From NCBI GenBank assembly GCA_003165675.1, contig PMNU01000015.1, positions 32,248-71,713 on the forward strand: DNA of 39,466 bases. The letters are read 5' to 3'. Shown here in pieces: positions 5,005-35,679 of the stretch. Under the pieces are notes generated by a model. It worked only from the letters and a program-made list of their open reading frames with translations. It was not told where the DNA came from and did no database searches. The position numbers and the translations under genes were made by a program. The first letter of the stretch is position 1. The number at the start of each line of letters is the position of its first letter. The DNA comes from Chloroflexota bacterium. GTDB taxonomy: Bacteria; Chloroflexota; Limnocylindria; Limnocylindrales; CSP1-4.

Positions 5005-6317
5005 CCGTCGATGGGACCCGGCTCCAGCGCCACCTGGACCAACTTCGGCGAGGCCGGGCGGCAGCCCACGTTGATCGTATCGGCGAGGCGGACCCCGAGA
5101 TCAGACGGGTCATCGCCGCAGTCGTGGCCGCGGGCGAGCGCAGCACTCCTCAGCCCGTGTGGCGTGGCGCCGGGGCCGCAGACCCGGCATCGCTGGCCAT
5201 GCGGCTGGCCCAGGGACTGGACGCGGATGCGGTCGAGACTCCTCACGGCTGGTATGTCCGCCGCGAGCTCCGGCCCGTGTACCTGCCCATCGATCGCGAC
5301 CGACTTGCCACTCTCCCGGGGATGCCCGCACCGGGCACTCCCCTCGTGTGTCTCGATACCGAGACGACCGGCTTGGGATCGGCCGCGGGCACTGTCGCTT
5401 TCCTGATCGGGATCGGCCGATGGCAGGGCAATCGGCTGCGCCTCGTTCAACTGCTGCTCCCGGACCACTCGGAGGAGCGCGCCCTCCTCGACGCCCTGGC
5501 TGACGAGACGCCGCCCGGATCCTGCCTGGTCACCTACAACGGGCGTACGTTCGACTGGCCTCTCCTCGAGACCCGGTTTCGAATGGGCCGCCTGGTGCCG
5601 CCCGCCCTCGATGGCCACCTGGACCTGCTGCTTCTCGTCCGGCGGCTCTTCCGGCATCGCCTCCCCGATGCCCGCCTCCAGACCGTGGAACGGCACCTGC
5701 TCCGCCGCCACCGCGCCCCGGACATTCCGTCGTGGGAGATTCCCGCCGTCTACCACTCGTTCCTGCGCGGCGGCCCAGCCGGGCCGATCCGGGTGGTAGC
5801 CCGCCACAACGCCGAGGACGTGGTCACGCTCGGGCGCATCCTGGCACACCTCGAACGCGGCTACGGCGTGGGCGAGGAACGGCGCTGGGCGCCTGCCGGG
5901 GATCTGGTGCGGCTGGCGCGGCTGTTCCGTCACGATGGCCAGATCGACGAAGCGATCGCCTGCCTGGAGATCGCCGGCGCTCCCATAGACGGCGGCGATC
6001 CAGATGTGGCCCTTGCCACGCTGGAGTTGGCTCGGCTGCTGCGCCGCTGCGGCCGCCTAGCCGAGGCCGGCGTGGCCTGGAGCCGCCTCGTAACGGCTCC
6101 GGGGCCGCTCGCGGCGCTCGGCTGGATCGAGCTGGCCAAGGAGCGCGAGCACCGCAAGCACGACCTGACCGGAGCGTGGACCGCCACGGACGAAGCTCTC
6201 CTGGCGCTATACCGCAGCCGGGGCCGTGGGCAGGCGGCGGTGCGGCGTGGTCTGGAGGCGGATCTGGCGGGTCGCCGGGCAAGACTGGCGCGGCGGCTGG
6301 AGCGGGCAGCGATCTGA
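5001..6317 (+). CDS. mrfB: DEDDh exonuclease with C-terminal TPR-like region, MrfB/YprB family
   Basis: A 438-residue RNase H-like exonuclease. Catalytic residues are visible: D119 and E121 in CLDTETTG, D185 in YNGRTFDWPLLETR, and H269 with D273 in HNAEDVVTL, the DEDDh set. After about residue 290 the chain becomes helical and alanine/leucine/arginine-rich with repeats like GQIDEAIACLEIA, consistent with the TPR region of MrfB. In B. subtilis MrfB acts with the MrfA helicase on mitomycin crosslinks; here the GTG start overlaps the mrfA stop by 4 nt, which supports a joint function. The N-terminal 100 residues are not assigned. The assignment is inferred from family and context. Confidence 0.88.
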   Translation: MTVDGTRLQRHLDQLRRGRAAAHVDRIGEADPEIRRVIAAVVAAGERSTPQPVWRGAGAADPASLAMRLAQGLDADAVETPHGWYVRRELRPVYLPIDRDRLATLPGMPAPGTPLVCLDTETTGLGSAAGTVAFLIGIGRWQGNRLRLVQLLLPDHSEERALLDALADETPPGSCLVTYNGRTFDWPLLETRFRMGRLVPPALDGHLDLLLLVRRLFRHRLPDARLQTVERHLLRRHRAPDIPSWEIPAVYHSFLRGGPAGPIRVVARHNAEDVVTLGRILAHLERGYGVGEERRWAPAGDLVRLARLFRHDGQIDEAIACLEIAGAPIDGGDPDVALATLELARLLRRCGRLAEAGVAWSRLVTAPGPLAALGWIELAKEREHRKHDLTGAWTATDEALLALYRSRGRGQAAVRRGLEADLAGRRARLARRLERAAI

Positions 6318-6438
6318 TCCACAACCGATGGACGCCCAACTGAGTCCATTCGGCCCCGCCGCCACCTCCGTACGGCACACTCGGGACCACCTCGACGCGT
6401 CCGACGATTCGCGCGTCACGACAGCAACAGGAATTGCC

Positions 6439-7068
6439 ATGAAGCCAGCCTCGTTGATCCGGCAGACGCTCGACCTGATCGTGGCGATCCCGCTGTTCGC
6501 CGTGACGCCGGTCATCCGGCCGTGGCATACGCGCTGGGGCGCGAGCCCGACCGAGGTCGGTTCTGCGATGCCCGGCGACGATCTCTTTCCACGGGCGCAG
6601 TTCCAGGCGACCCGTGCGATCACCATCGACGCAGCGCCGAACGAGGTGTGGCCGTGGCTCGTGCAGGTCGGATTCGGCCGAGCCGGCTTCTACAGCTACG
6701 ATCTGCTGGATTCGCTCGGCCACCAGAGCGCCGAGCGAATCGTTCCCGAGCTCCAGACGCTCAGCGTCGGCGACTGGGTGCCGATGTCCCCGACGGTCAC
6801 CGCCACCACCGCCTTCAAGGTCGATTCATTCGATCCCGCCGCCTGGTTGCTCTGGCGCAAGCCCGACAGCACATGGTCGTGGCGTCTCGACCCGGCAGGA
6901 CAAAGGACTCGGCTCGTCACCCGCATTCGCGTGGTCTACGACTGGCATAAGCCGGCGGCGGCGCTCCTGTCGGTCTTCCTGATCGAGGTTGGCGACTTCG
7001 CCATGATGCGCCGGATGCTGAAGGGGATCAGGCGCCGGGCGGAGACCCAGACGACGCGCGTAGCCTGA
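6439..7068 (+). CDS. SRPBCC (START-like) domain protein
   Basis: A 209-residue protein. An N-terminal hydrophobic stretch at about 8-30 may be a membrane anchor or a signal-like segment. Then comes a SRPBCC fold with ATRAITIDAAPNEVWPWLVQVG, the standard first strand and helix of the family, followed by W-rich strands (WLLWRKPDSTWSWRL) and a late helix. Such proteins bind hydrophobic ligands; no specific ligand can be inferred. The ATG at 6439 has CAGGAA about 7 nt upstream, so I preferred it to upstream in-frame starts. The 3' end overlaps the 3' end of the convergent kinase gene by 41 bp. Confidence 0.75.
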   Translation: MKPASLIRQTLDLIVAIPLFAVTPVIRPWHTRWGASPTEVGSAMPGDDLFPRAQFQATRAITIDAAPNEVWPWLVQVGFGRAGFYSYDLLDSLGHQSAERIVPELQTLSVGDWVPMSPTVTATTAFKVDSFDPAAWLLWRKPDSTWSWRLDPAGQRTRLVTRIRVVYDWHKPAAALLSVFLIEVGDFAMMRRMLKGIRRRAETQTTRVA

Positions 7069-7972
7069 GTCTCTCGGCCACCTGCGCCTCGGTGGGCACG
7101 CCCGCGATCCCCGCGCCAGCGACCGCGCACGATCCCGCTGCAGCGGCGAAGCGAAGCGCCCGCGACGTGGCCACGTCCCCGTTCAGCAGCCACTCGACCA
7201 TGAGCGCGGCTAGGAACACGTCGCCCGCGCCGGTCGCATCGACGACCCGGGGCGCCGGGACCGCCGGGTAGCGGACGAGGCGCTCGTCGCGCATAGCCAG
7301 ACCTCCGCGATCGCCAGCGGTAAGGAAGATCGCGGCTCGTGGCGCGAATGCCCGCAGCTCCGCCAGGCCGACGCCAGGGGGGACGTCGTCCACGCTCGCA
7401 CACACCAACCCAGCCACGCCCAGGATGGCCGACCGTGCGGGGTCGACGCGCTTCACCCAGCCATCGGCGGCGAACTCGCGCAGCATCCCCTGCCAGCCGA
7501 CCGCCACGCAGGCGTCCTTTCGGGTCGAGGCGACCTTTGCCCATTCCGGCGGCACCTCCCCGGCGACCGGCCCGAGCAGCCAGCCCCGCGTCCCACGCCA
7601 CTCTGCCGGGAGAGCCGCGGCGGGCACGCGGTCGCACTTCGAGAGCCATCGCTGACGGCGATGCCCATCCCGCTCGATGTTCTCGAAGACCGGCCCTCGC
7701 TCGAGCGCGACCCGGTGCACCAGGACACCGGCCGCCTCGAGCGAGGCCAGCTCCTCCGCGTCGGCCGCCGGTCCGTCGACACCCATGACGCACCCGACCC
7801 GCAATCCCAACCGCGCCGCCGTCAGCGAGCAATACGTCGCCGCGCCGCCGAGCCGCCAACCTCGGGGATCCTCCGGAGTGACGTCCCGCGACGCGGCCCC
7901 AACCACGATCAAGTCTAGGGGGCCGCCGGAACCGGCAGGCGACCCGTCGTATACTCCGCTGGCTTCCGACAT
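7028..7972 (-). CDS. PfkB-family carbohydrate kinase
   Basis: A 314-residue ribokinase-like sugar or nucleoside kinase. The N-terminal strand LDLIVVGAASRDV and the GGAATYCSLTAARLG segment match the first PfkB signature. The C-terminal signature DATGAGDVFLAALM holds the anion hole and the catalytic Asp. The substrate is unknown; the middle region is divergent. The ATG at 7972 has AGGGAGG 4 nt upstream and gives a normal N-terminus; an in-frame GTG or ATG further up is possible. The start codons of this gene and of the divergent acidic protein are only 22 bp apart, so each promoter must lie within the other gene. Confidence 0.85.
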   Translation of the reverse strand: MSEASGVYDGSPAGSGGPLDLIVVGAASRDVTPEDPRGWRLGGAATYCSLTAARLGLRVGCVMGVDGPAADAEELASLEAAGVLVHRVALERGPVFENIERDGHRRQRWLSKCDRVPAAALPAEWRGTRGWLLGPVAGEVPPEWAKVASTRKDACVAVGWQGMLREFAADGWVKRVDPARSAILGVAGLVCASVDDVPPGVGLAELRAFAPRAAIFLTAGDRGGLAMRDERLVRYPAVPAPRVVDATGAGDVFLAALMVEWLLNGDVATSRALRFAAAAGSCAVAGAGIAGVPTEAQVAERLRLRASSGSPPGA

Positions 7973-7994
7973 GCAGCCTCCCTGGAGTCGAACC

Positions 7995-8351
7995 ATGTTC
8001 TTCTACGAGCTTCGCGAAGGCGACGAGAACATCTTCGCCGACGTGCTACTGGTTCGCGAGGAGGAAATGGATGCGGACTCCTTCTTCGAGCTGGTCCAGG
8101 AGATCCGGCGGCGAGTGCAGGACACCTTCACTCAGGACACCTTGATCGAGGCCGTCGCCGAGGAACTGGAGCGCGACCACGCCTTCATCGCCATCTCCGA
8201 CGAGCGGCTATCGGCCTCGGTCAACGTCTCGAAGCTGGATGACGACAACTATCTGGCCAGCATCGACTCAGACGATGACGACGATCCGGACGCGCCAGAC
8301 TACCGAGGCATCTTCGTCAACCTGCCTCGCGACGGTTTCCTCCCGAACTAG
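7995..8351 (+). CDS. Small acidic protein of unknown function
   Basis: A 118-residue, strongly acidic protein with no signal peptide or membrane segment. Residues 1-80 look like a compact alpha/beta fold (MFFYELREGDENIFADVLLV, then a helix-rich middle). A DSDDDDDPDAPD run follows near residues 91-102, and the tail is conserved-looking (YRGIFVNLPRDGFLPN). I do not recognise the family. The coding signal is good (codon use typical of the window), and a GGAG lies 8 nt before the ATG. It diverges from the PfkB kinase and converges on the YchF-like gene. Confidence 0.7.
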   Translation: MFFYELREGDENIFADVLLVREEEMDADSFFELVQEIRRRVQDTFTQDTLIEAVAEELERDHAFIAISDERLSASVNVSKLDDDNYLASIDSDDDDDPDAPDYRGIFVNLPRDGFLPN

Positions 8352-8363
8352 GACAACGCCCGA

Positions 8364-8377
8364 GGGCCAACCGGCCC
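8364..8377. terminator. Short GC hairpin between convergent genes
   Basis: GGGCC-AACC-GGCCC in the 63-bp space between the acidic-protein stop and the YchF-like stop. It could act in both directions, but no T run follows on either strand. Confidence 0.3.
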
Positions 8378-8414
8378 CGCAGGCGTGTCGCGGCAGGAGC
8401 GCGCCACCGGACAG

Positions 8415-9518
8415 CTACCTGCTGAAGAGGATCTCGATGACGTCGCCGTCCTTGACCGTGTAGCTCTTGCCCTCGGAGCGGAGCTTGCCGTGCTTGCGCG
8501 CCTCCGCCGTCGTCTTGAGCGCAAGTAGATCCTCGTACGACACGACTTCGGCCCGGATGAAGCCACGCGCCAGGTCCGTGTGGATGGCCCCGGCCGCGTC
8601 CACCGCGTTCGAGCCGTCGGGGATCGGCCAGGCTCGTACCTCGTCCGGCCCGGCGGTCAGGAACGAGATCAGGCCAAGCAGTCGATAGCTGAGCCGCAGC
8701 ACGCGGTCCAGGCTCGACTCCGCCAGACCCAGCTCGTCCATGAAGACGGCCGCCTCCTCCGGCTCGAGCTCGCCCAGCTCCATCTCGATCTTGGCGGAAA
8801 GCGCATCGACCAGCGTTCGCTCATGCTTGTAGCGTCCCGCTATTTCGGCAGCGATCTCGGCCTCGCGTGGGAGGTCCGACTCGCCGACGTTGAGCAGGAT
8901 CAGGACTGGCTTCTGGGTCAGGAAGCGGAAGCCGCGGATCGACTTCTCCTCCTCGGCCGCCAGTGACTCCTCGCGCAGCGGCTTCCCCTCGGTCAGCGGG
9001 CGGTGAAGCCGCTCCAGTAACTCGAGCTCCCGATCGTTCGCATCGCGCTCCGCCGCCGTGCCGTGGTGGCCGGCCGCCTTCAACCGATCGATGCGTTTCT
9101 CCATTACCGACAGATCGGCCAGAGTGAATTCGAGGTCCAGGCGCTCGAGATCCCGCCATGCATCGACCGAACCGTCCGGGTGCGGTAGCGCCGGGTCTTC
9201 GAACGCTCGAACGACATGCAGCAACGCGTCGGCTTCCCGCAGTCGGGCCAGCTGGTCGGCCGGCAACTCTTCGGTTCCGACTCGGCCCTCCGTCGAAGCC
9301 GGCGGTGCCGGAAGATCGAAGTAAGTCACGTCGGCATGGACGATCTTGCGAGGCTTGAATATCTCCGCCAGCCTGTCGAGCCGCTCGTCGGGAACCTTGA
9401 CCGTCCCCACATGCAGCTCCAGGCCGCCATATCCACCAGTCTGGGCGTGACCCCTGGTCAGGGTGTTGAAGACGGTCGTCTTCCCCGACCCGGCGAGCCC
9501 GACAATGGCGATCTGCAT
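8415..9518 (-). CDS. Divergent YchF/OLA1-like P-loop NTPase (DUF933/TGS C-terminus)
   Basis: A 367-residue protein that matches YchF along its length, especially in the second half: the AEEAAVFMDELGLAESSLDRV helix, FLTAGPDEVRAWPI, and the C-terminal TGS-like DUF933 module ending GKSYTVKDGDVIEILF. The G4-equivalent LLNVGESDL has the NxxE form that lets YchF prefer ATP. The P-loop is GLAGSGKTT (residues 7-15) instead of the usual GLPNVGKST, and the switch II/DxxG region reads DLPAPPASTEG, so two nucleotide-handling motifs differ from YchF. It is probably a paralogous subfamily. YchF proteins bind ribosomes and act in stress responses; whether that holds here is unknown. The ATG at 9518 is preceded by AGGAGG 10 nt upstream. 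Confidence 0.85.
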   Translation of the reverse strand: MQIAIVGLAGSGKTTVFNTLTRGHAQTGGYGGLELHVGTVKVPDERLDRLAEIFKPRKIVHADVTYFDLPAPPASTEGRVGTEELPADQLARLREADALLHVVRAFEDPALPHPDGSVDAWRDLERLDLEFTLADLSVMEKRIDRLKAAGHHGTAAERDANDRELELLERLHRPLTEGKPLREESLAAEEEKSIRGFRFLTQKPVLILLNVGESDLPREAEIAAEIAGRYKHERTLVDALSAKIEMELGELEPEEAAVFMDELGLAESSLDRVLRLSYRLLGLISFLTAGPDEVRAWPIPDGSNAVDAAGAIHTDLARGFIRAEVVSYEDLLALKTTAEARKHGKLRSEGKSYTVKDGDVIEILFSR

Positions 9519-9580: not shown

Positions 9581-10612
9581 TCAATAGCCGGCGGCTGGGT
9601 CGACCGCGTGTTTCAGGGGCTCACCTGCGCGGTAGCGCCTCAGGTTGTCACAGAAGACATCCAGAGTCCGCCTGAGAACCGCAGCGCTGGACCAGCTCGT
9701 GTGGGGCGTAACGATGCAGTTGGGTAGCCGGTAGAACGGCGACGTCTCGGGCAGCGGCTCCTCCCGGAAGGCGTCCAGCACAGCACCGCCCAGCGGACCG
9801 GATCGCAGCGCTCGCAGCATCGCCAGTTCGTCGACCAATGCGCCACGGGCGACGTTGAGTATCCAGGCGCCCGGCTTGGCGCCGGCAAGGGATTCATCGT
9901 CGATGAGCGCTTCCGTCTCTCCCGTGAGTGGCAATGCCAGGACGACGAAGTCGGAAACGGCCATCAGCCTGGGAAGCGCCTCTAGACCGCCGAGGACATC
10001 CACGCCCTCCACCGGCCCGGCGTTGGGTCTGCGGCGGATGGCCACGATCCGCGGGCCGAACGGACGCGCCAGCGCCGCAATCTCGCAGCCGATGCCGCCC
10101 AGGCCGACCAGGCCGATCGTCGTCTCGGCCAGCTCTCGGGCCTCGAGCGGCTGCCAGGTTCGCTCGCGCTGCAACTCGAGCAGCTGAGGCAGCCGCCGGC
10201 ATATGGCCAGAAGCATCGTCATCACGTACTCGGCGATGGGCCGGTCGAAGACGCCGCGGCCGTTCGTTACGGTCAGGCCGCGCACCCGCACGCACGGCGT
10301 GAGGACCGACTCGACACCGACCGACACCGAATGGATCCAGTGCAGCCTGGGTGCTCGACCGAGGAGACGGTCCAGCGCGTCCCCACCCAGGGACCAGCCT
10401 CGCAGGAGAACCTCTGCGTCTTCGAGCGACTCGTCCGCGATCCCCTCGGCGCTAACCGGAATGAGCCGCGCACCCGGGGCGGCTTCGAGGATCCTCTCGC
10501 TCATCGACCCGAATGCGTCGCGGCCGGTGAGAACCGGGCTCATGGCGATCGCAGACGGCGAGCCGCCCGGTCCATGCCCCGGGCCTGCGGTTGCGGGAGT
10601 CTCAGCGTTCAT
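9581..10612 (-). CDS. D-isomer-specific 2-hydroxyacid dehydrogenase
   Basis: A 343-residue NAD(P)-dependent dehydrogenase. The Rossmann motif GLVGLGGIG follows the substrate-binding half. The catalytic triad of the family is visible: Arg in LNVARGALVDE, Glu in DAFREEPLPE and His in VTPHTSW. It lacks the C-terminal regulatory domains of SerA, which is encoded separately at 26165, so it is more likely a glyoxylate/hydroxypyruvate-type or other 2-oxoacid reductase; the substrate is unassigned. Its start overlaps the end of the zinc-protease gene by 11 bp, so it is in the same transcription unit. Confidence 0.88.
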   Translation of the reverse strand: MNAETPATAGPGHGPGGSPSAIAMSPVLTGRDAFGSMSERILEAAPGARLIPVSAEGIADESLEDAEVLLRGWSLGGDALDRLLGRAPRLHWIHSVSVGVESVLTPCVRVRGLTVTNGRGVFDRPIAEYVMTMLLAICRRLPQLLELQRERTWQPLEARELAETTIGLVGLGGIGCEIAALARPFGPRIVAIRRRPNAGPVEGVDVLGGLEALPRLMAVSDFVVLALPLTGETEALIDDESLAGAKPGAWILNVARGALVDELAMLRALRSGPLGGAVLDAFREEPLPETSPFYRLPNCIVTPHTSWSSAAVLRRTLDVFCDNLRRYRAGEPLKHAVDPAAGY

Positions 10613-24986: not shown

Positions 24987-26153
24987 GTGAATCGCTTCGA
25001 GCCCAACCTTCGAATACCAGGTCCTACCTCGCTCCCGGACGCCGTCCGCGAGGCCGGGGCCCGCCAGATGGTCAACCATCGTGGGCCCGAGTTCGCAGTC
25101 CTGCAGAACCGGGTTATCGATCGGCTGAAGGCCTTCTACAAGACTCAGAACGACGTTCTGATCGTGACCGCGGCCGGGACTGGAGGTCTCGAGTCGGCCA
25201 TCGTCAGCTTCCTCTCGCCTGGCGACAAGATCCTGGCGGTGACGATCGGCGCCTTCGGAGATCGCTTCGCTAAGATCGCCACCGTCTACGGTGCCGACGT
25301 GACCAAACTCGCCTTCGAGTGGGGCAAGGCCGCCGATCCGGCGAAGGCTCGGGACGCCCTTCGAGCCGGCGGACCGTGGAAGGCTGTCCTGTTGACCCAG
25401 AACGAAACCTCCACGGCCATTACCAATCCGATCGAGGAGCTGGCGAAGATCGTCAGGGAAGTGGCCCCCGAGGCTTTGATCCTCGTCGACGCGATATCCG
25501 GCCTCGGTGCGGTTCCGTTCGAGACCGATGCCTGGGGCCTGGACGTGGTCGTCAGCGGCTCGCAGAAGGCATGGATGGTCGCCCCCGGACTCAGCTTCGT
25601 CTCGGTTTCGCCGCGGGCGTGGAAAGCTGCCGCCGTGGCCAGGATGCCGAAGTTCTACTTCGATCTGGCCGCGCACAAGACCAGCGCCGAGTCGGGTCAG
25701 ACCCCCTGGACACCGGCCGTGGCCGTCATGTTCCAGCTCGACGTCGCCCTCGAGATGATGGAGCAGGAAGGCCTCGAGGAGATCTGGAAGCGCCACGCAG
25801 CCGTGGGTGCCGCGGTTCGAGCGGGCCTCACGGCGCTGGGATTCAAGCTCCTGGCGGATTCGGCGTTCGCCTCCGACACGGTGACGGGCGCCTGGATCCC
25901 GGAGGACCTCGACTGGAAGGCCTTCAACGGAAAGCTTCGCAAGCTCGGCCTCATCGTGGCCGGCGGGCAGGGCAACCTGAAGGGCAAGATCTTCCGGATA
26001 GGACACCTGGGCCACGTCACCGTCCCGGCTATCCTCAACGCAATGGCCGTCCTAGAGCAAACGCTCATCGAGCTCGGGCGGCCGGTCACTCCCGGCGCAG
26101 CCGTCGAGGCTGCTCAGGTGGCAGCTCTGAAGTCGCTCGGCCTGGCCAAGTAA
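24987..26153 (+). CDS. Class V PLP aminotransferase (serine-glyoxylate/phosphoserine type)
   Basis: A 388-residue fold-type I aminotransferase of the alanine/serine-glyoxylate (small-subunit hydrogenase-like) family. The N-terminal LRIPGPTSLPDAV and MVNHRGPEFA are typical. D168 in LVDAISGLGAVP and the PLP lysine K194 in SGSQKAWMVAPG are visible. With serA 11 bp downstream and a phosphatase after that, the best guess is the phosphoserine or serine aminotransferase step of serine synthesis. GTG 24987 has GAGAGG 8 nt upstream; a GTG at 24978 is too close to that site. Substrate specificity is inferred from context. Confidence 0.88.
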   Translation: MNRFEPNLRIPGPTSLPDAVREAGARQMVNHRGPEFAVLQNRVIDRLKAFYKTQNDVLIVTAAGTGGLESAIVSFLSPGDKILAVTIGAFGDRFAKIATVYGADVTKLAFEWGKAADPAKARDALRAGGPWKAVLLTQNETSTAITNPIEELAKIVREVAPEALILVDAISGLGAVPFETDAWGLDVVVSGSQKAWMVAPGLSFVSVSPRAWKAAAVARMPKFYFDLAAHKTSAESGQTPWTPAVAVMFQLDVALEMMEQEGLEEIWKRHAAVGAAVRAGLTALGFKLLADSAFASDTVTGAWIPEDLDWKAFNGKLRKLGLIVAGGQGNLKGKIFRIGHLGHVTVPAILNAMAVLEQTLIELGRPVTPGAAVEAAQVAALKSLGLAK

Positions 26154-26164
26154 AGGAGCTGGAC

Positions 26165-27748
26165 GTGAAGATCCTCGTTGCCGAGCCCCTGGCCAAGCAG
26201 GGTCTCGAGATCCTCCGGGCCCATCATGAGGTGGACGAGAAGATCGGCTTATCACCGGAAGAGCTGGCCGCGATCATCGGCGACTACGACGCGCTGCTCG
26301 TCCGCAGCCAGGTCAAGGTCACAGCCGAGATCCTCGCCCACGCCAATCGTCTGGTCGTCATCGGCCGAGCCGGCGTGGGGGTTGACAACGTCGACCTCGA
26401 GGCCGCCACAAAGGCCGGCATCGTGGTCGTCAACGCCCCGACCGGCAATACCGTCTCCGCCGCGGAGCAGACGATCGCCCTGATGCTGGCGCTCGCCCGA
26501 AAGACGGCCGCGGCGGATTCTTCGATGCGCAAGGGGGAGTGGAAGCGCAGCAACTTCACCGGCGTCGAGCTGCGCGGCCGCATCCTCGGTATCGTGGGCC
26601 TGGGCAAGATCGGCCAGGCCGTGGCCGATCGGGCCCGAGGGCTCGAGATGACCGTCATCGGCTACGACCCATTCGTTACCGCCGAACAGGCCGCCCTGCA
26701 CGGCATTGCCCTGGTCGAGCTGGACGCCATCATCGAGAAGTCGGACGTCATCACCGTCCACGTCCCGCTGAACAAGGCGACCCGCGGCATCATCAACGCC
26801 GAAAACATAGGCAAGCTCAAGCCCGGCGTCATGCTCGTCAACGTCGCCAGGGGCGGCGTCTACGACGAGGCGGTCGTAGCCGCGGCTCTGGTCGACGGCA
26901 AGATCGCCGGCGCCGCATTCGACGTGTACGAGAAGGAACCGCCGGTCGACTCGCCATTGCTGACGGCGCCCAACACTGTTCTGACGCCGCACCTGGGCGC
27001 ACTCACCGCCGAGGCCCAGCTGCGCGTCGCCGAGGAGGCCTGCGAGCAGGTCATCGACGTCCTCGCCGGACGCTCGGCGCGCTATGCGGTCAACGCCCCG
27101 CTCCTCACTCCCGAAACCTCGCGGGCCATCGCCCCGTACCTGCCACTGACCGAGATCCTCGGCCGCTTTGCCGCCCAGTACATGCGCGGCGGGGTGAGGG
27201 CTTTGACGATCGACGTCGCCGGAGACCTGGCCGATCACGACGCCTCACAGCTCACGGCGGCCGCTCTGCGCGGCATCCTCGAGAACGCCACGAGCGAGAA
27301 GGTGAACCTCATCAACGCCGGGTTCCTCGCCAAGAACCGGGGCCTGACGGTGACCGAGCGCAAGACGAGCGACGCGGGCACGTTCGCATCGCTGGTGACC
27401 CTCACGGTCGAGGGCGACAACGGCACGGCCGTCGTAGCCGGCACGATCGCCAACGGCGAGCCTCGACTCGTCCGTATCGACGACAACTGGCTCGACATGG
27501 CGCCGGCCCCGCTGATGGTCGTCACCCGCCACCAGGACAAGCCCGGAACCATGGGCCGCATCGGCTTGATCCTTGGCGAGGCCGACGTCAACATCAGTTC
27601 CATGACTCTTTCGCGAACCGCGGCCCGCCAGGACGCCCTGATGCTCCTCGCCGTCGACGATGACGTGTCGGACGCGGTTGCCGCGGCAATCCGGAACCAC
27701 CCGGCGGTTCTCGACGTGTGGGTCATCCGGGCCGCCCCGGAACGTTGA
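26165..27748 (+). CDS. serA: D-3-phosphoglycerate dehydrogenase SerA (long form with ASB and ACT domains)
   Basis: A 527-residue enzyme of serine synthesis that oxidises 3-phosphoglycerate. The Rossmann motif GIVGLGKIG is at 142-150. The catalytic triad is R229 in NVARGG, E258 in YEKEPP and H276 in PHLGA. The second half holds the ASB domain (about 310-440) and an ACT domain (about 450-527, MVVTRHQDKPGTMGRIG), the long form typical of actinobacteria and others; ACT often gives serine feedback. GTG at 26165 with AAGGAG 8 nt upstream. The stop overlaps the next TTG start by 4 nt (TTGA). Confidence 0.96.
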   Translation: MKILVAEPLAKQGLEILRAHHEVDEKIGLSPEELAAIIGDYDALLVRSQVKVTAEILAHANRLVVIGRAGVGVDNVDLEAATKAGIVVVNAPTGNTVSAAEQTIALMLALARKTAAADSSMRKGEWKRSNFTGVELRGRILGIVGLGKIGQAVADRARGLEMTVIGYDPFVTAEQAALHGIALVELDAIIEKSDVITVHVPLNKATRGIINAENIGKLKPGVMLVNVARGGVYDEAVVAAALVDGKIAGAAFDVYEKEPPVDSPLLTAPNTVLTPHLGALTAEAQLRVAEEACEQVIDVLAGRSARYAVNAPLLTPETSRAIAPYLPLTEILGRFAAQYMRGGVRALTIDVAGDLADHDASQLTAAALRGILENATSEKVNLINAGFLAKNRGLTVTERKTSDAGTFASLVTLTVEGDNGTAVVAGTIANGEPRLVRIDDNWLDMAPAPLMVVTRHQDKPGTMGRIGLILGEADVNISSMTLSRTAARQDALMLLAVDDDVSDAVAAAIRNHPAVLDVWVIRAAPER

Positions 27749-28614
27749 AGTCCACTTTGCGCGACCTGGAGCGGCTCCAAGCCGGGGAGAACCCGGTCTC
27801 CGGAGCCGCTCCGTTCATACCCCGCGGTCTCGACGGCGTCCTCGTCCTGCTGCGCCACGGGCAGACCCAGTTCATCGTCGAGAAACGCTTCCAAGGCGCG
27901 ATGGAGGCGCCGCTGACAACCCTGGGCGAGCTGCAGGCGACCCTGGCGGGCCGCCGCCTGGCCGCCCCCACCGCCGACCCGGCGTTGCCCATCCCCGATT
28001 CCGCGCCGTTTGCCATCGTCCACTCCCCGTTGGGACGGGCACGGCGCAGCGCCGAAATCGCAGCGGAGGCGCTACGCCCCGCCGGCCGCTCCGGTCCCCC
28101 ACTCCGCTCCGATGCCGGTTTCACCGAGATCGGCCAGGGCGGCTGGGAGGGCCTGACGGACGCGGAGATCACCGCCCGCTTCGGCGACTCGCTAGCCAAC
28201 TGGCGACGCTGGCCCACCAGGTTCGCGGCTCCCGGCGGCGAGACACTCGAGCAGGTTGCCGCACGCGTCGAGGCATCGCTCTCGGCGCTCCTCGCCGACA
28301 TGGCGGACGGGAGCGTCCCCGGGACCCTGGACCGCCACCAGGTCCTTGGATATGACGATGCCGCTCCGGATCGGCGTCGATGGTCGCTTATCGTCGCCCA
28401 CGGCGGCGTCTTCAGGGTCGTGGTCTGCGTCCTGCTCGGCCTCCAACTCGAGCACTTCTGGAACTTCGACTTCGGCCTTGGGGCGATCACCGTCGTGGAA
28501 GTCCGAGCCGGCCGCGCGGCGCTGCGGGCTCTCAATCTGGACTCGCACCTCGGCGCGGAGGCGAATCCGGAGACCGCGGAGACGTCCGGGAGAGAGGCCA
28601 GCGGGGCACTCTAG
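27745..28614 (+). CDS. Histidine phosphatase superfamily protein, possible phosphoserine phosphatase
   Basis: About 289 residues. The catalytic motif LLRHGQT has H38; the second His is in LIVAHGGVFRVV, with the Arg/Glu pair in HSPLGRARRSAEIA and GWEGLTDAEITARFG. These are the dPGM-like phosphatase features. Metal-independent phosphoserine phosphatases of this superfamily are known from Hydrogenobacter and Chloroflexus; the gene shares a 4-nt overlap with serA and follows a serine aminotransferase. A general phosphatase or phosphoglycerate mutase cannot be excluded. I used TTG 27745 because of that overlap; nearby in-frame starts exist. Confidence 0.8.
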   Translation: MKSTLRDLERLQAGENPVSGAAPFIPRGLDGVLVLLRHGQTQFIVEKRFQGAMEAPLTTLGELQATLAGRRLAAPTADPALPIPDSAPFAIVHSPLGRARRSAEIAAEALRPAGRSGPPLRSDAGFTEIGQGGWEGLTDAEITARFGDSLANWRRWPTRFAAPGGETLEQVAARVEASLSALLADMADGSVPGTLDRHQVLGYDDAAPDRRRWSLIVAHGGVFRVVVCVLLGLQLEHFWNFDFGLGAITVVEVRAGRAALRALNLDSHLGAEANPETAETSGREASGAL

Positions 28615-31004
28615 CGCTTGCGACCGCGCCTGCGGAACTGAGGCCTGCGGAAGGCCAGCCTCAGCAGAGCCTGGCGGACGATCCGTTGCGCAGTTGCTAG
28701 GAACACCAGTCGCTCGGAACTGAGGGTCTGCCTTCCGTAGGTGACGTCGACCGTCGCATTAGCCACGATACCCAGGGATTCGCGCGCTCTGGGCACGACG
28801 TCGGCCAGCATTCCGGTGTACTCGTAGACCGTTTGAGTCGGCCGTGGCTTGTAACCGAGCCGGCTGGCCAGCCGGACCACGTTGCGGTAGACGGTGTCCG
28901 GGCCTTCCAAGCGCCTGGGCCGGCGTCGCCAGATCGTGAATAGCGCAAGCGCGAAGACCGCCGCGAGAACGCCGGGCACGAGCAGAGCGGTGGGGCCGTT
29001 ATCGTTGTTCGTGGAGCCGGCTCCCTGGTCGGATCCGGGAGGGCGGCTTGGCCGGTTGGGGCCGGTCTGGTCGTCGGTGGCCGCCGCGGATGGCGTTGGA
29101 GTCGCGGTTACCGCGCTGCCGGGCACGAGTTGGGTCGGCTCACCCACGCCTCCTCCGGTGGGGTCGAACGGGATCCAGCCGTAGCCCGGGAAGAAGACCT
29201 CCACCCAGGCGTGCTTCTGCTGGCTCGTGACCTGCTCGATCAGCGTGTTCTGAGCCACGGCACCGGGCAGGTAGCCCTGCACATATCGCGCCGGATAGCC
29301 GTCCATCCGCATCAGCATCGTCATCGTGGTCGCGTACTGCTCGCAGAAGCCTTGCCGGACGAGGGCGAAGCAGTCGACCGTCGAGAGCCCCTGGCATTGG
29401 GTCATCAGCCCGCTGATGTCGGTGTTGTAGGTGAACACGTCGCTTCGCAGGTAGTCCTGGATGGCCTTGGCGACGTCGTACTCGTTGTCGAACGGGTTGC
29501 CGTTCGCGCGGGCCCAGTCGTCGATCTCCTTGAGCAGCGCCTTGCCCTCCGTTCCGACCTGGTCGGCGCCCTGCGTATACCTGGCGAGGAGTGCTGGCGG
29601 GTAGTCCGAGCCGGCATGGATGAGCCGCCATTCGGTCAGGCCCTGGCCGGTCGGATCGAGTTCCGGGACGTAGGACGAGATGGTGTAGTCGGCGGCCGTG
29701 GAGGCGTACCAGGCCACGTCGGCGCTCGACTCGTTGCCGACCACCGTCCGCTGCACCCCCGTGTTCACGGTGTCCGGTTCGTTGGCAACCACCAGGTGCC
29801 TAAGCGAGCTGTCCTGAACGTGGACGACGATGGTCACCTGGCTGCGACCGGGTGTGTCGGCGCCGACCAGATCCAGGGTCCCGCCGTCCAGGGTCCCGCC
29901 GGCGATGACGTTGTCCTGACGCGAGCCCGAGCCAATCGACCATCCCGTCCTCTGGAAGGTGTCGTACGAGATCACCCGCCAGTGGAACGATACGGAGCCG
30001 CTCGGGACACGGATGGTGAAGACGGGGCGGGTCGACTCGCGGAACGTCGAGCTGATGGGCGAGACCGACCCAAAGTCCGAGTTGGGCTGGTACCGGCTCG
30101 CGCCGCCGTTCGGCAGATAGCCGCTCATCCAGCTCAGCGTGTCCTGGAAGTTGGAGCCTATGTCCTTGAACGTGCTCGCGAGAGGTGCGGAGCTGGCCAC
30201 CGTGGTGAGTACGAGCGATCCGGCCACGGCGAATGCTGCGAACAGAATGCCGCCCTGCAGGTGCGGCGCCTGGATGTCGCGGCCACGCCAGATGCGATGA
30301 CGGAGCCAGCTCGATCGCTCGTCGGCGGCGTGGGCCAGCAACAGCAGCACCAGGGCCGCGGCGCTGAAGACAACCAGCGCCCCAAACTGGTCCTGAAGCG
30401 TCAACGCCATGTTGGCGATCAGGACGACCGCCAGCAGAAGCACGCCGTTGACCGACCGGTGGTAGCCGAAGATGTCGTAGGAGGCCGCCTGGGCGGTCCC
30501 CCAGACCAGAACCCCGAGGATCAGGCAGAAGTGGCCGACCTGAAGGGTCGACACCTGGTGGCGCCAGGTCAGATCCAGGTAGGCCTGCGTCACAGAGTTT
30601 GCGGTGGCCTGGAACCAGGTCGTCAGACCGGGGGTTGTGTTCGGAAGCGAGGCGCCGACCGCCTCGATGAGGATGAATGCCGCAATGGTGCACCCCAGAG
30701 CCTGGGCCAGCCATGCCGGCAGGTCGAGTCGCGCACTCAGGTAGCCCCACAGCGCCCCCGCGAGGGCCACCCAGATCAGGAAGCTCGTGAGCTCGTCCCG
30801 CCCGAGAATCCACCGGGCATCGGCGATTGACCAGGCCATGGTCCCGGTCAGTAGCAGAACCAGCGGCAGGCTGTACCAGCCCTCGTCGGGACGCATTCGG
30901 GCGCGGATCCGGCCGATCGATCCCGGCTCAACGAGGTCGGACACTTCGCCTCTGGACCGGTACACGTCTGGGCGACTCGTTGGAAGCCAGCTTGCATTTG
31001 CCAT
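28611..31004 (-). CDS. Transglutaminase-like membrane protein (TgpA family with DUF4129)
   Basis: A 797-residue membrane protein. The N-terminal third has about six membrane helices. The extracytoplasmic part holds a transglutaminase-like fold with the triad C554 (RQGFCEQYAT), H598 (KHAWVEVFFPG) and D614 (IPFDPTGGG). A low-complexity Thr/Pro/Ser linker and a C-terminal membrane segment (about 695-715) follow, then a cytoplasmic DUF4129 helical tail. This family is found with MoxR and DUF58 proteins. The precise role in the cell envelope is unknown. The stop shares the CTAG palindrome with the stop of the convergent phosphatase gene. ATG 31004 has GGGGGC about 9 nt upstream. Confidence 0.92.
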   Translation of the reverse strand: MANASWLPTSRPDVYRSRGEVSDLVEPGSIGRIRARMRPDEGWYSLPLVLLLTGTMAWSIADARWILGRDELTSFLIWVALAGALWGYLSARLDLPAWLAQALGCTIAAFILIEAVGASLPNTTPGLTTWFQATANSVTQAYLDLTWRHQVSTLQVGHFCLILGVLVWGTAQAASYDIFGYHRSVNGVLLLAVVLIANMALTLQDQFGALVVFSAAALVLLLLAHAADERSSWLRHRIWRGRDIQAPHLQGGILFAAFAVAGSLVLTTVASSAPLASTFKDIGSNFQDTLSWMSGYLPNGGASRYQPNSDFGSVSPISSTFRESTRPVFTIRVPSGSVSFHWRVISYDTFQRTGWSIGSGSRQDNVIAGGTLDGGTLDLVGADTPGRSQVTIVVHVQDSSLRHLVVANEPDTVNTGVQRTVVGNESSADVAWYASTAADYTISSYVPELDPTGQGLTEWRLIHAGSDYPPALLARYTQGADQVGTEGKALLKEIDDWARANGNPFDNEYDVAKAIQDYLRSDVFTYNTDISGLMTQCQGLSTVDCFALVRQGFCEQYATTMTMLMRMDGYPARYVQGYLPGAVAQNTLIEQVTSQQKHAWVEVFFPGYGWIPFDPTGGGVGEPTQLVPGSAVTATPTPSAAATDDQTGPNRPSRPPGSDQGAGSTNNDNGPTALLVPGVLAAVFALALFTIWRRRPRRLEGPDTVYRNVVRLASRLGYKPRPTQTVYEYTGMLADVVPRARESLGIVANATVDVTYGRQTLSSERLVFLATAQRIVRQALLRLAFRRPQFRRRGRKR

Positions 31005-31050
31005 CGCTAGCTGCCCCCAAACGTCCAGAAGGCCGTCAGCGGTCGTGCTC

Positions 31051-32274
31051 TCACGCCAGCACCGACCCGAGGTTGTCTCCGGCGTGGACCTCGTAGGCCT
31101 TGATGTCGTACTCGGCCAGGGCGAGGCGCAGCGCGCGCTGCTGCGCGGCCGCGTCGCCATCCGCCTCGATCCTCCGACGCGCCGCAGCGGACAACTCGTA
31201 GGAGCCGGCGGCGATCGCCACCACGGCCGCGTTCACGCCCCGGACCCGAAGCGACGTGAGCGCCCTGACCCACTGCCGGTCCCGTGACGGAGTGACGACC
31301 AAGGCCGTCATCCCGCGCCGAAGCTTCGGCAGGCCAGCCAGCAAGACTTCCTCGAGGGGCGATTGACCGTCGCCCTCGACCGCCGCCAGGAGTTGCATGA
31401 TCTTCTGGTGCTGCCTCGGGCCTCGGTCAGCCGGGATGGATACGAGCCTGTGGCCGCTCGTCGTCAGACCCACCGCCCGGTTCTCGACGATCGCATCGTG
31501 AGCGATGGAAGCCGCAACGCGGAGGGACTCCTCCACGGTCGAAATGTCACCCTCGCCCCTCTGCACTGTCGACTCGAGATCTACGAAAATCCAGACATCG
31601 GCGGTCTGCTCCAGGTCGAATTCCTTGACCTGGATCTCGCCCAGTCGCGCCGTGCTGCGCCAGTGGATCCGGTTGAAGCTGTCGCCGGGTGCGTACGGGC
31701 GAACCGTCGTAGCCAGAGGAGTCGTCTGTAGAGTCCGCTCGGGAGAGGAGTGAGTGCCCTCTAGGAAGGCGTTGGGGAGGCGCCAGCGGGGCAGTGGCAC
31801 GACGCGCGGAAAGACCGTCACCACGGTTGGCCTCCCGACAGTCGCGGCAGCCTCGAAGAACCCGAACGGGTCGCCGGTCCTGACAACCATCGGCTCGATG
31901 TGGAAGGTCCCGCGTCGGGTCAGCGGCACAATGCCGACCCACGAACGCTGAGCCCAGGAACGCAGCCCCAGGGCCCGACCCGGCAGCGGCACTGGCAGAT
32001 CCGTCGGGTTGTATATCTCGAGCCACGGCTTGGGCAGGCTACTGGCGTTGGAAATGCTGTACGTCGTTCTGAGGTCGTCGCCGACGTGGCCCTGACGATG
32101 GTCGACCCGATATCCGGCCTCGAGATCGGCAAGGCCAAAGTGGGTCAGCACGTAGCTGCCGCCGACGGCGAGCAAGCCCAGATAGACGACATAGAACAGG
32201 AACCCGAGTCCGGTCGAAAAGGCCGCGATCAACAGGACGACTACAACGATCAGGAACTGGAGCCGCCTGATCAC
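31051..32274 (-). CDS. DUF58 domain-containing protein
   Basis: A 407-residue protein. Two membrane segments at about 6-24 and 25-45 form an N-terminal hairpin, and a beta-rich domain follows. The DUF58 signature is RPYAPGDSFNRIHWRSTARLGEI, followed by a vWA-like region (WIFVDLESTV, then GMTALVVTPSRDR). DUF58 proteins are usually partners of MoxR ATPases. Start GTG 32274. Between the MoxR stop (32296) and this start is 21 bp. Confidence 0.92.
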   Translation of the reverse strand: MIRRLQFLIVVVVLLIAAFSTGLGFLFYVVYLGLLAVGGSYVLTHFGLADLEAGYRVDHRQGHVGDDLRTTYSISNASSLPKPWLEIYNPTDLPVPLPGRALGLRSWAQRSWVGIVPLTRRGTFHIEPMVVRTGDPFGFFEAAATVGRPTVVTVFPRVVPLPRWRLPNAFLEGTHSSPERTLQTTPLATTVRPYAPGDSFNRIHWRSTARLGEIQVKEFDLEQTADVWIFVDLESTVQRGEGDISTVEESLRVAASIAHDAIVENRAVGLTTSGHRLVSIPADRGPRQHQKIMQLLAAVEGDGQSPLEEVLLAGLPKLRRGMTALVVTPSRDRQWVRALTSLRVRGVNAAVVAIAAGSYELSAAARRRIEADGDAAAQQRALRLALAEYDIKAYEVHAGDNLGSVLA

Positions 32275-32295
32275 GAGCGGACGCCCCCGGGTTGG

Positions 32296-33324
32296 CTAGC
32301 GAGTTGGGCTGCCGGCGGCGCCACGTGTGGCTGCTCCCGCCTGCGACCGTCGGGCTGGAGCGCCGTCGCGGATCCCGCCGGCCGACCCGCTCGAATCCAC
32401 TGGAACGGTGTTCAGCAGCTCGGCTATCACCAGCCGTGGATCGATATCGTGCATAGACGAACTCGTCTTGATGATCAGCCTGTGGGCCAGAGCCGCCTCG
32501 GCAAGGACCTTGATGTCGTCAGGGATGACGTAGTCGCGGTCGGACAGGGCCGCCAGAGCCTGGCCCGTGCGATATAGCGCCAGGGATCCGCGCGGCGATG
32601 CCCCCAGATAGACATCCGGGTGAGTTCGCGTCGCGTTGACCAATCGGACGATGTAATCGGCGACGCTGGGATCGACATAGACCTGGCGGACGGCGGCCTG
32701 GATCTCGCGCAAGTCCGAAACGTCGAGGACTTCTTTGAGGTCGTCGAGCGGATGGCTGATCTTCTGCTCATCGAGGATCGTCTGCTCATCGGCCTGGCTC
32801 GGGTAGCCAAGCCGGATGCGGAGCATGAACCGGTCCAGCTGGGCCTCCGGCAGGGCGAACGTGCCCTCGTATTCGATCGGGTTCTGCGTGGCAATGACCA
32901 GGAATGGCTCCGGCATCTGGTACGTGGTGCCGTCGATCGTGGCCTGGTGCTCTTCCATGCATTCGAGCAGCGCGGACTGAGTCTTGGGCGTGGCCCGGTT
33001 GATCTCGTCCGCCAGGACGACCTGAGCCATGATCGGCCCCGGTCGGAACTCGAACTCCTGCGTCTTCTGGTTGTAGATCGACAGGCCGGTCACGTCCGAC
33101 GGAAGGAGGTCCGGCGTGAACTGGATGCGTCGGAAGCTGCAGCCAAGGCTGCGCGCCACCGCTTTCGCGAGCATCGTCTTGCCAGTGCCGGGCACATCTT
33201 CGATCAGGAGATGGCCGCGGCACAGCAGCGCAACGAGGGTGAGTCGAACCTCCTGGCGTTTGCCGATGATGACTCGCTCGACGTTCGCGGCTACCTTCTC
33301 GCCGAGATCTTGGATCTGGGTCAT
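32296..33324 (-). CDS. MoxR-family AAA+ ATPase
   Basis: A 342-residue AAA+ ATPase of the MoxR group. Walker [13 protein letters not shown] at about 43-54, Walker [11 protein letters not shown] at 102-111, sensor [22 protein letters not shown], and the lid domain [23 protein letters not shown]. MoxR proteins act as chaperone-like partners of DUF58/vWA proteins. It is the first gene of the MoxR-DUF58-TgpA unit. The last 30 residues ([18 protein letters not shown] and following residues) are low-complexity. ATG 33324 with AGAGAG just upstream. Confidence 0.94.
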
Positions 33325-33427
33325 GACTCTCTCTTCAGGACGCGAAGGTGGATGGCAGGCCGCGAACGATTCGCGGAGCCCCTGGTTGCCGGACGCCCCA
33401 ACCGCCACCAAGGGCGGAGGTCGCCAC

Positions 33428-33433
33428 ATACTA
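33428..33433 (-). promoter_or_regulatory. Candidate -10 box of the MoxR operon
   Basis: Minus strand TAGTAT, four of six matches, about 100 nt upstream of the MoxR start. The -35 is not convincing. Confidence 0.3.
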
Positions 33434-33466
33434 ACCCGTGACGATTGCGCCGTTGCCGTTGTGATA

Positions 33467-33495
33467 GGTGCGTCTCGCTCTGGGGGCGACGCACC
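33467..33495. repeat. Inverted repeat (8-bp arms)
   Basis: GGTGCGTC and GACGCACC with a 13-nt spacer. An alternative pairing joins GGTGCG with CGCACC and TCGC with GCGA for a longer stem. It is just upstream of the candidate MoxR -10 on the minus strand. Confidence 0.6.
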
Positions 33496-33649
33496 CATTC
33501 GGTCTGCCGGGCAACGCGCGGGCAATGAACCGTGCGGGGCCGATCCGGCCCGGCGACCACTCCGAATCGGCGACGTGTGGGACCTTCCTTGCATTTGGCC
33601 TTGCAGTCGACCGGACCTTCGGACCCCGCAGGTGAGTACGAGCAGGCCT

Positions 33650-33686
33650 GATGTCGAGAGCGAGACATAGGCGTACGCTCGACATC
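33650..33686. repeat. Perfect 9-bp inverted repeat upstream of the zinc-ribbon gene
   Basis: GATGTCGAG and CTCGACATC separated by 19 bp, ending 52 bp before the ATG at 33739. It could be an operator for a dimeric regulator or a leader hairpin. Confidence 0.6.
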
Positions 33687-33738
33687 GAGCGTTGTGCCGG
33701 CAGCGCTCAGGTTTCGCCTGCAGGACCACGGAGCAACA

Positions 33739-35679
33739 ATGCCCGACTTGACCGACTCGTTTTGCGAGCGCTGTGGTGCTCGCCACGTCGTGTCTCCGAA
33801 CGCGCCCCGGGCACTGTCGTTCAAGCGGGCGCGCGTCCTTGCAACGGGCCTGAAGTACTTCGTTCTTACCGACGGCCAGTCGATGCGCGACTCGCTGACT
33901 CTGGCGCGCCACGAAGACGAACATCAGGATACGAACCGAGCGACTGAGTCGTTCCACCGCATCTTCAACTTCTGCATGACGTGCCGGCAGTACGCGTGCG
34001 ACCGCTGTTGGAACTCCAATGCCAGCGCATGTTTGTCTTGCGCCCCTGAGACCGGCATCGAACCTGTTGCGCCCGAAGATCACTTGATCGTCCGGACGCC
34101 AGTCGCCCGATGGGACGCCGACTGGTCGCAATTCCCTGATGGTCCCGCCGTCGAGCCGCTGGCCCGCCCGGCTGCTCCGGTGCCGCACGGCGCGCCCCTT
34201 CCCTTCGCGGAAGCGCAACCGTTGCGCCCGCCGGAGCAGCCGGATCCGCTGGCCTGGCCCGCGGCGGATCTGCCGGCAGCCGCTACGGCTTCGACGCCTG
34301 GCCACGACGGCAAGCGCCACCACGCGTCCCAGCCGTCTGCCGACCCAGAGGCCTGGAGCCTGTGGCCGATTGCCGATGAGATTGCGCCCGAGATGACCCT
34401 GACCCCCGAGGAACTGGAGCTTGTCGAGTCAAGGCTCGGGCAGGTAGACGCAATGCCGGATCCCCTGCGGGACCGCGCGGCCGCTTTGGAAGCACCGCTC
34501 CCCGATGGCCCGGCGCCGTCGACCCCGAAAGCCACTCTCGCGGAGGACATGGCTCGAGCGCCCGAGGGCACGCCCGGTAGCGATGCTCCGATGGCCTGTT
34601 CCACTCTAGTCTCGGAGCCTGAGCCAGCTGCGGCTGAGGACTCGGCGGGAATGACGCTGCCATCGGCTCAGCAACCAGCGGTCCCGATACCCGAAACGCA
34701 GATCCAGCCGCAGCGCATCCTCCGCAAGTCAAGGGCAAACCAATCCCAGCTCCTGCCTCTGCAGACGCACCCGGCGCCGCCAACCCATCTACCGGAGACA
34801 CGCGAACGCACCCCCATCTTCGCGAGGCTGCTTGGCAGACGCGCCCCCGAGTCCGCGACCGATCCGACCGCGGACACCCAGGACTCCAATGCGCCTGCTG
34901 TGGAACCGGTCCGCGACCCCTGGCCGCACGCGACGCTCTGGTCGGACCGCTCGCCGGCAACTCGGCCTCGAGGGGCGGAGGGCGAGGCGTTGGGCAGAGA
35001 CGCAGCGCCCGAGCTGGTGGCCCCCTCCATCGCTCCGGCTCCCGTTCCTGCTCCTGCTTTGGCTCCTGCCGCGGCCATGGAGGCGGCGGAACCGGTAGCC
35101 GCTCCGGCAACCCAGGCAATTCAGGCGGCGAGGCCCGAAACCGTCCGCCTCCAGGCCGAGTCGGCTCCAATCGACGCCCGCTCGGCCGCCGCCGTCCGAC
35201 TCTCCGCGGTGTCCGCGAGTCCGGCCGAGCCGGCCGGAACCACCCAACCGACAGTGGACCTCACTGTCGGTTGGGTCGAAGCGCCGACCGATCCAACCCC
35301 CGCCACGCCGGCTATGGGTCAGCCGCAGGTAGATCTGCCTTCGGTTGCGGGAAGGCCACAAGTCGCGGCGGCGTCGACTCCCGATCGGCCCACAGAACCC
35401 CCCGTCGTGCGCTCAACATCTCCGGCGCCGTGGCCGCCGCTCGGCGCAAGCTGGCCGCCTCAGGAGGACCGCGGGGCGGTGTGGCCCGGCCCCGACGCAG
35501 CGTCCGTTCCCGCTGCTCTCGCGGCTCGACAGGGCGCGACGCCCACACTGGACGCGATGTGGGCCCTTTCCGCTCAAGAAGTGCTCAGCCGCGGCTCCGT
35601 CCGGGTCTGCCACCGATGTGCCCTGCCGGTCTCGACGCAGGCTCGGTTCTGTCGGCGCTGCGGAACGCAGCAGGCCTGA
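33739..35679 (+). CDS. Protein with zinc knuckles at both ends and a long disordered middle, unknown function
   Basis: A 646-residue protein. The N-terminal 101 residues contain CxxC pairs C9/C12, C79/C82, C87/C90 and C98/C101, enough for two zinc sites, with a folded-looking segment between them ([20 protein letters not shown]). The last 25 residues hold a second zinc ribbon (C624, C627, C638, C641). Residues about 110-600 are low-complexity Pro/Ala/Glu-rich, almost certainly disordered. No membrane segment or signal peptide is seen. Function not recognised. GGAG lies 6 nt before the ATG. The middle part contains a perfect 15-bp inverted repeat (35242-35276). Confidence 0.75.
35242..35276. 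repeat. Perfect 15-bp inverted repeat inside the zinc-ribbon coding region
   Basis: ACCCAACCGACAGTG and CACTGTCGGTTGGGT flank a 5-nt loop (GACCT). The repeat lies in frame in codons about 502-513 and encodes [11 protein letters not shown]. It is much stronger than neighbouring structure and cannot be explained by codon use alone. Confidence 0.9.

Follow-up and report, generated by a model that had tools for sequence, protein, structure and literature searches.

A putative serine operon with substitute second and third enzymes in an uncultured Chloroflexota lineage

In Synechocystis PCC 6803 the role of phosphoserine aminotransferase is assigned to Sll1559, an aminotransferase that is not SerC (attributed to Klemke 2015 in the available text of PMC9997740), and the phosphoglycerate mutase-like protein Slr1124 is annotated as the phosphoserine phosphatase, with the same attribution (available text of PMC11257934). 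In gut bacteria, an aminotransferase of family PF00266 (SerC3) and a phosphatase of family PF00300 (SerB2) each occur beside serA (available text of PMC9026213). The locus discussed here lies in a 39,466-nucleotide stretch of a Chloroflexota genome (assembly GCA_003165675.1, contig PMNU01000015.1; the window hereafter), located on contig 103 of the source genome, which measures 2.35 Mb in 166 contigs and is 81.67% complete. It consists of a class V aminotransferase gene, serA and a histidine-superfamily phosphatase gene, which are probably transcribed together and serve the phosphorylated route to serine, with substitutes for the second and third enzymes:

24987..26153, + strand: SerC3-like aminotransferase of class V (PF00266), putative phosphoserine aminotransferase; start GTG
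26154..26164, + strand: 11 bp spacer between the aminotransferase gene and serA, with a ribosome-binding-like AGGAG (read directly)
26165..27748, + strand: serA, encoding a long-form D-3-phosphoglycerate dehydrogenase that has an intervening and an ACT domain (TIGR01327, PF19304, PF01842); start GTG
27745..28614, + strand: histidine-superfamily branch 1 phosphatase (PF00300), proposed phosphoserine phosphatase; start TTG

Direct reading of the sequence places the serA start 11 bp after the stop of the aminotransferase gene, with AGGAG upstream of serA, and has the phosphatase start overlapping the serA stop by 4 nt (TTGA), so that the tight joining described in an earlier note on this DNA is borne out. 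The same applies to the identity of SerA, which passes the curated phosphoglycerate dehydrogenase equivalog TIGR01327 (627 bits, cut-off 454), matches PF19304 as well as the ACT domain PF01842 (31.9 bits, cut-off 27), and carries the motifs NVARGG, EKEPP and TPHLGA, which we take to provide the catalytic arginine, glutamate and histidine. A second D-2-hydroxyacid dehydrogenase (PF02826, 163-165 bits) is encoded elsewhere in the window (9698-10222, - strand).

In the proposed route, SerA would convert 3-phosphoglycerate to 3-phosphohydroxypyruvate (its family membership being evident from the sequence), the class V aminotransferase would stand in for SerC in forming O-phospho-L-serine (as the displacement of SerC and the operon context suggest), and the phosphatase would replace SerB, releasing serine through a phosphohistidine on His38 in a metal-free reaction (the catalytic residues are present, while substrate and mechanism are predicted). 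Synechocystis likewise has a non-SerC aminotransferase and a phosphoglycerate mutase-like phosphatase, but belongs to a different phylum. In the gut bacteria, serC3-serA and serB2-serA are found in different taxa and the fuller operons use SerB1 or SerB4, whereas serC3-serA-serB2 together is not described in the available text of PMC9026213; the likeness of the present aminotransferase to the SerC3 group of that source is one of PF00266 membership and linkage to serA, not of compared orthology. Because Synechocystis combines both substitutions and gut bacteria show each of the serA pairs, neither the enzyme substitutions nor their co-occurrence in one organism is new. The earlier proposal that the whole route relies on non-canonical second and third enzymes is supported in part, by the lack of canonical serC and serB in the genome and genus, the conserved trio and the displacement of SerC, but the combination of enzymes was already known. 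The operon combination appears to be new and the phosphatase group distinct, in a pathway that would itself be ordinary. A literature search turned up no description of all three genes in a single operon (which does not prove that none is in print), and it returned nothing on serine biosynthesis in Limnocylindria, nor on a class V aminotransferase with serA in an operon.

Canonical SerC and SerB, and conservation of the trio

The comparison set comprised 121 genomes, i.e. the source genome and 120 relatives, with 21 genomes in the own genus, 73 in the own family (f1) and 14 in f4. Canonical SerC (TIGR01364 at E ≤ 1e-10, TIGR01366 at E ≤ 1e-20) was found neither in the source genome, at its 81.67% completeness, nor in any of the 21 genomes of the genus, in agreement with the earlier remark that no SerC-type gene is seen. 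The source genome has PF00266 matches at nine places (the trio aminotransferase among them), and none of the four stronger matches reads as SerC; these are presumably SufS- and NifS-like, judging from their context. For SerB, the same incomplete genome yielded only sub-threshold matches to TIGR00338, the best (51.1 bits, cut-off 144.15) being a protein on contig 119 that NF010109 and TIGR02137 identify as the HAD enzyme ThrH, and SerB exceeded the cut-off in 0 of the 121 genomes (control: 7/14). The earlier claim that there is no HAD-type SerB thus stands for SerB over its cut-off, in the genome and in the whole set, but fails for this genome if ThrH, a HAD family with phosphoserine phosphatase activity, is counted as a phosphoserine phosphatase, because contig 119 encodes it. 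A gap in the partial assembly as the sole cause of the missing serC and serB was ruled out by the counts for the genus (SerC) and the full set (SerB). The trio would fill these apparent gaps in an uncultured lineage that otherwise resembles a serine auxotroph.

Layouts in the family were counted from the profile rows of the aminotransferase and the phosphatase, with a serA-sized gap of 1.1-2.0 kb between them. Rows with weak scores were set aside as paralogues, both for the aminotransferase and, in G027, G031 and G033, for the phosphatase; the cut row of G109 was also dropped, and G035 and G070 were scored as positive in spite of their split rows. Both genes lie on one strand at this distance in 58 of the 73 family genomes, and serA was confirmed inside the gap in all trio loci that were read. 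The remaining genomes have the two genes adjacent without serA between them (1), on different contigs (3), the phosphatase only (6), the aminotransferase only (2) or neither (3). The trio is therefore conserved among related genomes, a check that the earlier note had suggested, and chance adjacency is ruled out by the 58 genomes that keep the arrangement. In f4, aminotransferase and phosphatase are directly adjacent, without serA between them, in 6 of 14 genomes, while 4 have the aminotransferase only, 1 the phosphatase only and 3 neither. The same pair, which among the other records belongs to this Chloroflexota family, was seen in a Steroidobacteraceae-titled and thus nominally proteobacterial metagenome-assembled genome (MAG; L168), perhaps through a binning or naming error.

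A wider survey of named loci covered the best 80 of 552 relatives, a sample that leans to close relatives. The aminotransferase is paired with serA in 67 of these 80 loci, mostly from Chloroflexota but also from MAGs titled as Armatimonadetes, Bacillota and Desulfosporosinus; 4 others have aminotransferase and phosphatase, 6 the aminotransferase alone, and 3 are too short. A histidine phosphatase comes next in 19 of the 67 pairs, and 14 end at a contig edge. Since the pairing with serA is common and the phosphatase is next in only some loci, it looks like the aminotransferase and serA form a broad and older unit, to which the phosphatase was added in a few lineages.

The aminotransferase and its exchange with SerC

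The aminotransferase belongs to PF00266 (71 bits) and exceeds no curated equivalog cut-off, staying far below the canonical SerC models (TIGR01364, 19.8 of 443.6 bits; TIGR01366, 43.2 of 401.65 bits). K194 (in SQKAW) and R337 (in FRIGHLG) are invariant in 15 of 15 aligned rows. The closest solved chain is 2dr1, followed by 6pk1, a serine-glyoxylate aminotransferase. The serine-glyoxylate-type label of the earlier note describes the relatives of this enzyme, the activity of which is predicted. Its place in the route gains support from the way it displaces SerC.

Within the family, the aminotransferase is missing from 9 of 73 genomes, and 7 of these 9 hold a true SerC, of the TIGR01364 type in G031, G047 and G062, of the TIGR01366 type in G036, G042 and G069, and as a partial TIGR01366 match at a contig end in G059. 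Neither enzyme was seen in the other two, G027 (62% complete) and G033 (54% complete). Of the 64 genomes that have the aminotransferase, 6 hold SerC, and the difference has a Fisher p of 3.2e-5, uncorrected for relatedness; the seven genomes represent four genera, a small effective sample. Because the aminotransferase and true SerC tend to replace one another, and given the operon context, the aminotransferase is very probably a phosphoserine aminotransferase. The exchange also bears on the third enzyme: serA and the phosphatase stay together in 6 of the 9 genomes without the aminotransferase, and all six have SerC. The substrate of SerC is a phosphorylated keto acid, and therefore the phosphatase should act after SerC, i.e. 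on phosphoserine.

The phosphatase and its substrate

The phosphatase is a member of histidine phosphatase branch 1 (PF00300, 146 bits), with RHG37-39, E128 and H219 invariant in 22 of 22 aligned rows. That it might be a cofactor-dependent phosphoglycerate mutase, which in the lack of phosphoserine activity would have undone the earlier proposal, is not supported by TIGR01258 (28.6 of 81.7 bits, below cut-off). Its predicted structure (predicted local distance difference test score, 86) is closest to iPSP1/PspA of Hydrogenobacter thermophilus (4ij6, Z 27.8, root-mean-square deviation 1.4 over 203 residues; 4ij5, Z 27.3). PspA also comes first in a single-sequence search (53 bits vs 50 for PhoE) and when the phosphatase profile is run against solved sequences (141.7 bits, the next different enzyme being PhoE with 114). 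The two proteins share fold and catalytic residues. In the C-terminal region that is characteristic of iPSP1 they have an N..HL segment in common, but one of the paralogues in the source genome (C157) also ends in N..GHL. They differ in that the trio phosphatase is 25% identical, has Gln instead of His85, and adds an N-terminal extension and an insertion conserved in the family; it also falls below the curated PspA models (NF045917, 72.4 of 350 bits; NF009994, 49.1 of 277 bits).

His85 is, by what Chiba is said to have reported in 2013, needed in PspA of H. thermophilus. Among 43 genomes (45 loci, two genomes being represented twice), the corresponding residue is Gln in 41, His in G055 and Met in G024, compared with Phe and Tyr in the paralogues C6 and C157 and Leu in PhoE and GpgP; a polar residue at this position is suggestive but proves nothing. 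Two trios outside the own class have His there. That of L192 (a Desulfosporosinus-titled MAG, 5001-8499), outside Chloroflexota, is PspA-like (170 bits), whereas that of L160 (Anaerolineae) would support the case less cleanly, because it is closer to PhoE (127 bits) than to PspA (92.5 bits) despite the His. The proposal that the phosphatase is of the type known from Hydrogenobacter and Chloroflexus was not confirmed, in view of the Gln and of a tree group of its own. In a survey of 400 genomes of the phylum, the phosphatase profile matched something in 374 (the superfamily is common, and weak-match counts were not used), and no genome outside the own family scored above 215 bits, apart from two of f4. 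Taken together, it is likely that the phosphatase acts on phosphoserine, and outside the own genus it is the best candidate for this reaction, because ThrH was not found there (0 of 100 other relatives). The group would also provide a testable set for assigning function where sequence alone misleads.

A number of observations weigh against the proposed operon function. The activities of all three proteins are predicted, the source genome is only 81.67% complete, and sub-threshold HAD-IB proteins are present in G002 and G071. SerC accompanies the aminotransferase in 6 of the 64 family genomes that have the latter, and a histidine phosphatase is not next in 34 of the 67 aminotransferase-serA loci (best 80 of 552), nor beside the pair in an f3 genome. 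For the phosphatase itself, Gln131 sits where PspA has His85, PhoE (Z 26.8) is only 1.0 Z unit below PspA and the riboflavin phosphatase 9mmh reaches Z 26.0, and a tree of 27 phosphatases groups the trio proteins apart, with a poorly resolved relation to PspA (the own paralogues are on long branches). Structural similarity does not fix the substrate, because a riboflavin phosphatase of Aquifex likewise has iPSP1 as its closest structure (available text of PMC12051542). A putative phosphatase beside serA in Desulfovibrio, moreover, did not rescue an E. coli serB mutant and was dispensable in defined medium (available text of PMC5764234).

ThrH, rival routes and neighbouring genes

ThrH moves phosphate from phosphoserine to homoserine (available text of PMC1079889), and its family has phosphoserine phosphatase activity (available text of PMC5764234 and PMC1079889). 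The ThrH of the source genome passes TIGR02137 (294 bits, cut-off 223) and NF010109, like that of Pseudomonas aeruginosa, and is not part of the serine operon; it lies at contig 119:1854-2426 of the source genome (G000; 1830-2429, - strand, in locus L242), and further loci are L239 and L240. Of the 21 genomes in the genus, 18 have ThrH over cut-off and 2 others carry pieces of it, and TIGR02137 found it in none of the 100 other relatives. The homoserine kinase ThrB (TIGR00191), conversely, was found in 0 of the 21 genomes, a difference from P. aeruginosa, and in 86 of the 100 other relatives at E ≤ 1e-15 (82 over cut-off). In the two genomes examined for this, ThrH sits beside thrC: G002 has an aspartate kinase close by, and in G020 hom is a neighbour as well, in convergent orientation. 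Because ThrH is confined to a genus that lacks ThrB, it has probably replaced homoserine kinase there in the service of threonine synthesis, drawing some phosphoserine as the phosphate donor for homoserine; hydrolysis by ThrH could still add to the serine supply. Such an exchange points to a chemical link between the making of serine and that of threonine in one genus.

Three other assignments have to be weighed. That ThrH is the real phosphoserine phosphatase of the genus, with the histidine phosphatase merely co-transcribed and acting on, for example, a sugar phosphate or a riboflavin precursor, would fit the near-universal presence of ThrH in the genus, the activity described for its family and the missing His85; it is nonetheless unlikely, since ThrH was not found in the 100 other relatives, where the linkage of serA and phosphatase is kept in most of the family, and since ThrH matches the loss of ThrB and adjoins thrC in G002 and G020. 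Less probable still is that the aminotransferase is of a glyoxylate or 2-aminoethylphosphonate type and that another, unrecognised aminotransferase makes phosphoserine. Its top NCBIfam scores are indeed for BhcA (aspartate-glyoxylate aminotransferase, NF045640, 301 bits) and PhnW-AepZ (200 bits), vs 43 for serC_3 and 20 for serC_1, but both are below their own cut-offs (650 and 361), so that it does not qualify as BhcA, and the enzyme is linked to serA in most of the surveyed loci (67 of the best 80 of 552) and replaced by SerC elsewhere.

The same three enzyme classes would also suffice for a glycerate route, in which the phosphatase acts first, on 3-phosphoglycerate, glycerate then serves as substrate of the dehydrogenase, and the aminotransferase turns hydroxypyruvate into serine in the manner of serine-glyoxylate-type enzymes; the nearest named solved relatives of the aminotransferase do include serine-glyoxylate aminotransferase. 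This we regard as the least probable of the three, given that SerA passes the phosphoglycerate dehydrogenase equivalog, that six genomes pair serA and phosphatase with SerC, whose substrate is phosphorylated, and that ThrH, which uses phosphoserine, appears to replace ThrB in the genus. The phosphorylated route by way of the trio thus remains preferred. An extension of it, to which we give slightly less than an even chance, is that this lineage has a phosphoserine phosphatase group of its own, with Gln at the His85 position, which joined the aminotransferase-serA operon independently of iPSP, and that in the genus phosphoserine would be a branch point, from which the phosphatase leads to serine and ThrH to homoserine phosphate, the ATP-dependent homoserine kinase being replaced and threonine synthesis depending on the serine operon.

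Around the trio, a PIN-domain protein (PF01850; 24234-24902, - strand) is encoded divergently from the serine operon and is preceded by a small gene without a Pfam match, a pair that resembles a VapBC toxin-antitoxin system. On the other side, a row of MoxR-type AAA, DUF58 and transglutaminase-like genes (28611-34323, - strand) is convergent with the serine operon.

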